NCBI GenBank assembly: GCA_020161245.1
Contig: JAIUOK010000004.1
Span: 62,001 to 126,000 of the forward strand
DNA length: 64,000 nt
From: Actinomycetota bacterium
GTDB lineage: Bacteria; Actinomycetota; Actinomycetes; S36-B12; CAIYMF01
Direction: 5' to 3'
A program made the position numbers and the translations under genes. Below the pieces are notes generated by a model, which was not told where the DNA came from, searched no databases, and was given only the letters and a program-made list of their open reading frames with translations. The number at the start of each line of letters is the position of its first letter. Within the stretch, counting starts at the first letter, position 1. Shown here one piece after another: positions 49,268-57,573 of the stretch.

Positions 49268-49625
49268 GGCCGGACCTCTCTCTCGTCGAGGGACGCCTTC
49301 CCCAGCGGCCTCACGAGCCCAGGTCCTCACGGTCCACGAGCAGCGCACGCGACCGGCCGCAGCCGATCGCACTGCGGTCACGATAACCCGACGAGCACCG
49401 TCCGCACCACCAGCCACGCAGCCCCCTCGCCGGACGGACCTCCCATGGAAACGCTCCCATTCGGACGATCGGGTGGATGACGTCCCTCTCTCGGAGCATC
49501 CGGGTGAAGGATCCTCAGGTCCGGGGCCCGCCGCGGCCGATGGGTCTCGTGCAGGACGGCACCAGGGGGTGCTGTGGCACGGGGGCCGGAGCGGGATCCG
49601 GTGTGAGCACGGGGAGGGCGGGGCC
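49268..49625. promoter_or_regulatory. divergent intergenic region with a LacI-like operator
   Basis: 358 bp between DUF3145 (-) and the next gene (+). TGGAAACGCTCCCA at 49446-49459 has the CG-centred half-sites (TGGGAGCG / TGGAAACG) of LacI-family operators such as those of sugar regulators in streptomycetes. Otherwise no gene or RNA is recognised. Confidence 0.4.
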
Positions 49626-55523: not shown

Positions 55524-55535
55524 TAGCCTGACGTC
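55524..55535 (+). promoter_or_regulatory. leaderless -10 element for the cysteine-type leader peptide
   Basis: TAGCCT at 55524-55529 lies 6 nt before the GTG of the small upstream ORF. Confidence 0.55.
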
Positions 55536-55604
55536 GTGATCTCCTCGACGGCCCGTGCGACCGCGCCGGTGCGCGCGCTCGCCAGCTGTCGCTGTCCCGG
55601 CTGA
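55536..55604 (+). CDS. 22-aa leader peptide ending Cys-Arg-Cys (probable cysteine attenuator)
   Basis: GTG-initiated 22-codon ORF, product ending ALASCRCPG, with both cysteine codons (TGT) just before the stop. The leaderless start puts the ribosome on the mRNA at once. Short leader peptides ending in cysteines precede sulfur genes in mycobacteria and other actinobacteria and couple ribosome stalling at Cys codons to expression of the next gene. Here a strong hairpin (55603-55630) starts at the stop codon, and the downstream gene encodes a cysteine-dioxygenase-like cupin. The mechanism is inferred. Confidence 0.55.
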   Translation: MISSTARATAPVRALASCRCPG

Positions 55605-55630
55605 CGCCGTCCCCGCGCGGGTCCGGCGTC
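55603..55630 (+). promoter_or_regulatory. hairpin of the putative cysteine attenuator
   Basis: GACGCCG (55603-55609) pairs with CGGCGTC (55624-55630), with inner CCCGCGCGGG able to pair too. It overlaps the leader peptide stop codon, so ribosome position would decide whether it forms. Confidence 0.45.
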
Positions 55631-55672
55631 GATACGCGCCCCGACCGGACCGAGCCGAGAGACACCAGCGAG

Positions 55673-56137
55673 ATGACCGACCTCCTCACCCCCCTGCACA
55701 CGTCCCTGCCCGCCGAGCAGCACGTGGCGGCCCATCTCTACGACGCCGCCGACCCGCGCGCCGTGGCCCGCGTGGTCGCCGACCACCGCGAGCTGTGGGC
55801 GGCCCGGGTGCGGTTCGACCCCGACGCCCCGCAGCACGTGACCGTCTGGGCCGACGACCGCTGGGAGGTCCGCCTCGGCGCGTGGCTGCCCGGCCAGTCG
55901 AGCGGCGAGCAGCACCACGTGGGGCGCCGCGGCGCCCTGCTCGTCCTGCAGGGCGCGCTGCGCGAGACGACCTGGCACGTGGCGACCGACGGCCCGACGC
56001 CGGGACGTCGCCACGCCGTGACCCGCGTCCATCGCGCCGGCGACGTGCGCACGCACGGCCACGTGCACGTGCACGCCGTCGAGCCCGAGGGCAGCGACCC
56101 CGTACTGGCGCTGCAGGTCCACGCGCGCACGGCGTGA
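55673..56137 (+). CDS. cysteine dioxygenase-like cupin
   Basis: A 154-residue cupin. The first cupin motif reads LGAWLPGQSSGEQHHVGRRGALLVLQGALRETTW and the second carries histidines in DVRTHGHVHVHAVEPEG, resembling small bacterial cysteine dioxygenases, which oxidise cysteine to cysteine sulfinate with Fe(II). The first motif lacks the usual HDHG order (it reads EQHHVG), so activity on cysteine is uncertain. The Cys-ending leader peptide upstream supports a sulfur role. Weak ribosome-binding site (GAGAGACACCAGCGAG). A terminator follows. Confidence 0.7.
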   Translation: MTDLLTPLHTSLPAEQHVAAHLYDAADPRAVARVVADHRELWAARVRFDPDAPQHVTVWADDRWEVRLGAWLPGQSSGEQHHVGRRGALLVLQGALRETTWHVATDGPTPGRRHAVTRVHRAGDVRTHGHVHVHAVEPEGSDPVLALQVHARTA

Positions 56138-56148
56138 GCCGACCACGA

Positions 56149-56178
56149 CGAAGGCCCCGGCAGATGCCGGGGCCTTCG
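56149..56178. terminator. bidirectional intrinsic terminator
   Basis: CGAAGGCCCCGGC-AGAT-GCCGGGGCCTTCG, a perfect 13-bp stem, lies between the cupin (+) and fasciclin (-) genes. Confidence 0.85.
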
Positions 56179-56869: not shown

Positions 56870-57027
56870 GGGGTCGTCCTCCGGGTGGGGTGCGCCCGGT
56901 CCGTCCGGGCGACGCTGCCCCTACTTCTGGCCCGGACGCCGCGGCGGATGCACCGGTGTCCGAATCACCCGAACGGCCGCGGGCCGGTCCTGGCAGCATC
57001 GGGCCGCACCCGAGCACCGGAGGAACG

Positions 57028-57573
57028 ATGACCGACGCCGTCTGGACCGCACCCGACGTCGAGCGCGACCCGAGCCCGAGGCTGGTCGACGAGCGGGCCT
57101 GCCTGCAGGGCTGGCTGGACTTCCAGCGCCAGACGCTGCTGTTCAAGTGCGCCGGGCTCACCCACGAGCAGCTCGCGCAGCGCAGCGTCCCGCCGTCGCG
57201 GCTCTCGCTGCTCGGACTTGTGCGCCACATGGCCGAGGTGGAGGCGTGGTGGTTCCGCTCGATGCTGCGCGGCGAGCACGCGCACGGCTTCTACGGCCCG
57301 GACGGCAACGAGCAGGGCGACTTCGAGGACCTCGACTCCGTGCCGGCCGAGGAGGTGTTCGCCCGGTACGCCGAGGAGTGCCGCCTCGCCGACGCCGCAG
57401 CGGCCGACCTCGCGCTCGAGGACACCTTCGAGAACCCGTACTGGGGCCGCGGGGCGAAGGTCCAGCACCTCGACCTGCGCTGGGTCTACCTCCACATGAT
57501 CGAGGAGTACGCGCGCCACAACGGCCACGCCGACCTGCTCCGCGAGCTGATCGACGGACGCACGGGCGACTGA
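57028..57573 (+). CDS. DinB-superfamily protein (DUF664, mycothiol-transferase-like)
   Basis: A 181-residue helical protein; metal-binding histidines appear in GLVRHMAEVEAWWFR and YARHNGHADLLRELIDG, the DUF664 hallmark. Members probably transfer mycothiol to electrophiles. GGAGG lies 6 nt before the ATG. A shorter paralogue occurs at 15959. The enoyl-CoA hydratase gene follows after 17 nt. Confidence 0.88.
   Translation: MTDAVWTAPDVERDPSPRLVDERACLQGWLDFQRQTLLFKCAGLTHEQLAQRSVPPSRLSLLGLVRHMAEVEAWWFRSMLRGEHAHGFYGPDGNEQGDFEDLDSVPAEEVFARYAEECRLADAAAADLALEDTFENPYWGRGAKVQHLDLRWVYLHMIEEYARHNGHADLLRELIDGRTGD

Follow-up and report, generated by a model that had tools for sequence, protein, structure and literature searches.

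The stretch of actinobacterial DNA analysed here (the window, 64,000 nucleotides) carries a small reading frame between a histidine-kinase gene and a gene for a cupin protein, with only a short intergenic gap before the cupin. The sequence-only reading of this region had described the hexamer TAGCCT placed 6 nt before a GTG that opens a 22-codon ORF, a hairpin starting at the stop codon of this ORF, and a cysteine-dioxygenase-like cupin as the next gene, and each of these features is present (Table 1). The spacer between the hexamer and the GTG is GACGTC, and the spacing of the -10-like box would place the start of transcription at 55536. The leader ORF contains only two Cys codons, which are non-adjacent and lie a few codons 5' of the stop. 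The hairpin, which begins inside the stop codon, has a folding energy of -19.1 kcal/mol when folded alone (z -2.6). The cupin matches PF05995 (CDO_I) with 29.8 bits against a cut-off of 23, and its membership of the family is weak but above the cut-off.

Table 1 Features of the candidate leader and cupin gene in the window (G010 is a second genome of the same genus).
Feature	Position	Strand	Basis or remark
-10-like hexamer TAGCCT	55524..55529	+	sequence; 6 nt 5' of the leader start codon
Leader ORF VISSTARATAPVRALASCRCPG with stop codon; GTG start, 22 codons, presumed leaderless	55536..55604	+	relative to G010, one-codon indel without change of frame
25-nt block identical in G010	55585..55609	+	extends over the Cys codons, the stop and the left arm of the hairpin
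Putative sensor codons TGT-CGC-TGT (Cys-Arg-Cys)	55587..55595	+	TGT at 55587 and 55593
Stop-codon hairpin, GACGCCG (55603-55609) / CGGCGTC (55624-55630)	55603..55630	+	folding
Probable ribosome-binding region, conserved CCGAGCCGAGAGA, just 5' of the cupin start	55650..55662	+	predicted to pair with leader segments
Thiol-dioxygenase-like cupin (PF05995), putative regulated gene	55673..56137	+	profile match, AlphaFold model, fold search

A sigma-70 promoter scan that also required a good -35 element found no promoter for the leader. An Rfam search of the sequence returned just one sub-threshold match, to sX6, outside the leader. This weak match overlaps a long palindrome (GAAGGCCCCGGCAGATGCCGGGGCCTTCG, window 56150-56178) that is located between the convergent cupin and fasciclin genes and is terminator-like by position.

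Only two genomes of the genus contain the cupin, that of the window and G010, which limits covariation testing. The two cupin proteins are 54-57% identical, and the G010 gene is preceded by the same layout, consisting of TAGGCT-N6-ATG, the leader MLSADIRTSAPVRGALGCCRCPG with its stop codon, and a stop-codon hairpin. The leader ORFs differ by a whole-codon indel that retains the frame, and the residues A-P-V-R are retained through third-position changes. Near the ORF end, the Cys codons read TGT-CGC-TGT in the window and TGC-TGT-CGC-TGT in G010, neither of which is one contiguous run. The G010 hairpin folds at -19.4 kcal/mol (z -4.1) around a loop unlike that of the window. Across 181 kb of this genus, searched on both strands, the cupin leader is the sole leaderless Cys-pair mini-ORF with a TANNNT box.

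PF05995 genes are found in 8 of the 166 genomes of the order and in 198 of the 394 genomes of the class. We surveyed 127 PF05995 loci across the class for an upstream mini-ORF at most 400 nt from the gene and with two Cys codons within its last nine codons, using dinucleotide shuffles as controls. Such mini-ORFs precede the gene at 61 of the 127 loci, compared with 4-8 in the shuffles. The number is 46 with a relaxed -10 filter (0-1 in shuffles) and 12 with a strict TANNNT box (0 in shuffles). The same survey for Trp, His, Met, Tyr and Phe codons returned 0-10. Within the order, two genomes of another family (f3) carry TACGGT-N6-ATG and the peptide MTTQICCC, followed by a stop codon, before the cupin; one of these genomes appears, from alignment, to be the MAG UBA10799. 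Other clades have leaders of their own, namely MMEHVGSQGCCCRS and MMERFGFCECCRP in family f9, MINSRYFRMGRMPSGGLARCCA in family f34, and, in the Streptomyces-like family f22, MTDTCVRLWRRVHMDLVRYAGCVCRPSC before the first cupin type and MPATSAP..RCCCCCSSC before the second. The named genera with clade-specific Cys-ending leaders before dioxygenase genes are Kitasatospora, Actinomadura, Streptomyces, Cellulomonas and Pseudonocardia (L047-L076, L209-L287). Across the clades only the Cys codons near the leader end are common, while peptides and hairpins differ. When presence of the leader is mapped on a tree of 101 cupins, no fewer than 10 changes are required, indicating that the association recurs in separate clades. 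At a further set of loci (L124-L129), leaderless mini-ORFs of the type LHSDRVTDLGRLASGACRR were seen approximately 450-800 nt 5' of the dioxygenase gene, perhaps at the head of an operon.

The sequence-only reading had proposed looking for the ORF upstream of orthologous genes. It was found at the single orthologue from the same genus, in a second family of the order and on many separate branches of the gene family, and this comparison supports the view that the cupin gene has a leaderless cysteine-codon leader, with a start site deduced from the -10 spacing. At the level of sequence, the conservation in G010, the uniqueness in 181 kb and the class-wide enrichment confirm that the window leader is more than a chance occurrence.

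A scan of the same genome for other leaders, covering approximately 98 kb and complemented by searches with models and patterns, revealed Cys leaders before genes of sulfur assimilation. A sulfite reductase-cysH-cysD-cysN operon is preceded by CACTCT-N6-ATG and the HVDL-type leader MSAHNRLVVRRHVDHMLVASAMCLPVG with its stop codon (L181 8644-8561, minus strand; contig C31), which is related to the NCBIfam Ms4527A leader at a score below the cut-off. An OAH sulfhydrylase-like gene (PF01053) is preceded by TAGGGT-N7-ATG and a leaderless HVDL-type leader beginning MHRRPALVSRRHVDLGRVASQMC (L192, contig C72 near 49428-49481, minus strand), and a similar leader is found in another genome (G005, L193). 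These HVDL-type leaders suggest that Cys leaders serve the sulfur assimilation genes of this organism. The peptide of the cupin leader differs from both.

The Cys codons in 46 survey leaders comprise 80 TGT and 67 TGC, compared with 16 TGT and 229 TGC in the long high-GC3 ORFs of the window genome. This over-use of TGT may be regarded as a trend, related leaders being non-independent. The rarer, wobble-read codon would be expected to give a more sensitive sensor.

The AlphaFold model of the cupin is confident (pLDDT 92), and the nearest solved folds are thiol dioxygenases. For the clade of this cupin, the best-matching solved structures are those of the Thermocatellispora ergothioneine dioxygenases, and the next best are Bacillus and mammalian cysteine dioxygenases and 3-mercaptopropionate dioxygenases. 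Residues 79-82 of the window cupin (55907-55918) are E-Q-H-H in place of the family H-x-H, such that the first metal-ligand His is a Gln and the three-His metal site of cysteine dioxygenase type I (HxH plus His) is incomplete. The other two metal-site His residues are conserved, the G010 cupin retains H-T-H, and nearly all other relatives have the first His. Given the Gln at the metal site, the window enzyme may be altered or inactive. A rhodanese gene is next to the cupin in many of its relatives, and is absent beside the cupin in the window and in G010. At one locus (L150 1381-2256), a thiol-dioxygenase cupin is fused to a rhodanese domain. A gene of the mycothiol-S-transferase family (PF04978) lies near the window cupin (56890-57573), with the reverse-strand fasciclin gene between them, and a gene of the same family is directly downstream of the G010 cupin, at a distance of 40 nt (L003). 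Ergothioneine dioxygenase acts together with an SO2-releasing desulfinase.

The sequence-only reading had taken the target to be an enzyme that consumes cysteine. We consider this role doubtful, because the family includes ergothioneine dioxygenase, rhodanese is beside many of the relatives, a metal-site His is replaced by Gln, and the usual direction of cysteine leaders would be odd for cysteine disposal. Such leaders usually turn genes on at cysteine shortage, and the mycobacterial ones are described as doing so in PMC13236596. If this holds for the leaders described here, sulfur recovery from another thiol is more sensible than cysteine disposal, and the cupin probably has a part in retrieving sulfur from some non-cysteine thiol.

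Of the attenuator originally proposed, with its hairpin at the stop codon, the hairpin stands, but no terminator was found with it, nor any clear switch at the ribosome-binding site. A search between the leader and the cupin returned no terminator-like site, and the stop-codon hairpin is without a T run, making termination of the trp type unlikely. Rho could still be involved at the leader. Over 46 leaders, the modelled exposure of the ribosome-binding site has a mean of 0.40 in the free state and 0.40 with a stalled ribosome. For the window, the first model gave 0.34 in both states, and re-modelling on the ribosome-binding core gave 0.27 free and 0.38 stalled. No general effect was seen on re-modelling, the Streptomyces-like type-1 loci alone showing a clear rise. 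In these, the last leader codons (CCGUCCUG) are complementary to the segment that holds the ribosome-binding site (CAGGACGG), both are conserved and the spacer is not, and a ribosome placed on the final Cys codon increases the modelled exposure from 0.05 to 0.28. Pairing between the Cys region and the ribosome-binding site, scored at 98 loci, has a mean z of -0.13 and is not general across clades.

In models of the window and G010, the start region of the cupin pairs with leader segments, notably the 5' end, and a stall alone changes little. When a second ribosome also occupies the leader 5' end, the modelled exposure in G010 goes from 0.17 to approximately 0.6, compared with the 0.27 to 0.38 of the window. 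Base pairing between the 5' end of the leader and the start region of the cupin is suggestive within the order (shuffle fractions 0.01-0.21) and not general. An alternative hairpin, formed by the right arm of the stop-codon hairpin and a segment before the ribosome-binding site, seemed compensatory between the window and G010, and was rejected on finding it equalled by 38% of the window shuffles (5% for G010).

Taken together, we are fairly confident that 55536-55604 is a leaderless cysteine-sensing leader peptide gene of the mycobacterial kind, serving the cupin gene at 55673. The identity of the sensed amino acid as cysteine is well supported by the sequence comparisons, and the leader most likely tunes the cupin to the cellular cysteine supply. 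Transcription would start at or beside the GTG, allowing ribosomes to enter at the 5' end of the transcript. During a shortage of charged tRNA-Cys, we infer that these ribosomes would pause at the two rare TGT codons near the stop, and the pausing would depend on cysteine. The folding of the RNA from the Cys codons through the stop-codon hairpin to the ribosome-binding site of the cupin would then depend on where the ribosome is, which would thereby decide whether the cupin is translated. We lean towards more cupin being made when cysteine is short, most likely via translation and not a terminator. This direction is drawn by analogy, since the folding models of the window and G010 are ambiguous. 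The analogy is to the Streptomyces version and to the mycobacterial precedent for translational control, in which only a ribosome stalled at the Cys codons frees the ribosome-binding site from masking by the leader (Canestrari 2020, as related in PMC13236596).

The same sensor could also operate with the opposite sign, the pause keeping the cupin off and completion of the leader at plentiful cysteine turning on a true cysteine dioxygenase. We regard this as unlikely, although it would suit a cysteine-degrading enzyme. The folding of the window decides neither sign, and the stop-codon hairpin, which would form during the stall and be opened by a terminating ribosome, is usable either way. However, the mycobacterial translation attenuators run in the other direction (as described in PMC13236596), the same genome places Cys leaders on sulfur assimilation genes, and the last leader codons of the Streptomyces-like type-1 loci mask the ribosome-binding site, which predicts that the gene is on when the ribosome is stalled.

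It is very unlikely that the leader senses something other than charged tRNA-Cys, such as thiol or redox state via a nascent Cys-rich peptide, or that it is an RNA structure or coupling device. The 25-nt identity with G010 includes wobble positions, the stop codon and a hairpin arm, which indicates a constraint at the RNA level, and the third-position changes within the conserved APVR suggest some constraint on the peptide; across the clades, however, it is only the Cys codons near the end, and not the peptides or hairpins, that are common. A chance ORF, with the cupin read through from the histidine-kinase gene or transcribed from another promoter, would accommodate the deduced start site, the lack of a sigma-70-like promoter by the scan criteria and the short intergenic gap, but is highly improbable given the conservation in G010, the uniqueness in 181 kb and the enrichment across the class.

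With the cysteine-sensing leader as the preferred reading, the findings widen the range of cysteine-codon attenuation to an order of actinobacteria that has been little studied and, via the survey, to a gene family whose members are usually taken to degrade cysteine. If the leaders switch on at cysteine shortage, the annotation "cysteine dioxygenase" would be misleading for many actinobacterial genes, and the regulation would be a direct clue to the substrate of the enzyme. As a tentative broader proposal, actinobacteria may repeatedly have put unrelated Cys-codon leaders before thiol-dioxygenase genes, often followed by rhodanese, as a response to cysteine starvation that frees sulfur from thiols such as ergothioneine and does not dispose of cysteine. 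Within this proposal, the hairpin at the stop codon and the rare TGT codons would mark the window leader as a separate type of sensor.

Among characterized enzymes, the Thermocatellispora ergothioneine dioxygenase (PDB 8QFL-8QFR) is the best fold and profile match for the clade of the window cupin. However, the two share only approximately 21% identity and are placed on different branches of the tree, and the cupins closest to the Thermocatellispora enzyme are mostly without a Cys leader. The NCBIfam models NF042934, NF042933 and NF042936 represent short Cys-ending leader peptides, like that of the window. The dioxygenase leader of the Streptomyces-like loci scores above the NF042934 cut-off (37.1 bits against 27), but the window peptide matches none of the three. 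The window leader thus has a peptide that fits no existing model, and calls into question the physiology of its target class. The candidate cys-operon leaders of Mycobacterium, Propionibacterium acnes and Bifidobacterium (PMC1262725) have Cys codons near the stop and no intrinsic terminator, as in the window, but precede cysteine biosynthesis genes, unlike the window leader. There is also a parallel in design with the leaderless polycysteine attenuator ORFs of mycobacteria (Canestrari 2020, cited by PMC9094748, PMC9031893 and PMC13236596; Shell 2015, PMC4633059). The loci named in the passages of the citing texts are cysA2, Rv0485 and nirA, with no dioxygenase among them, whereas the target in the window is dioxygenase-like. 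The window leader, known here from sequence, also has Cys-Arg-Cys in place of a run of Cys codons and an unrelated peptide. In both systems the ORF is short, appears leaderless at a -10-like box, has Cys codons near its end and is 5' of a gene for which a role in sulfur metabolism is, in the case of the window, putative. The mycobacterial kind of -10 box, approximately 6-7 nt before the start codon, is matched by both TAGCCT-N6-GTG in the window and TAGGCT-N6-ATG in G010.
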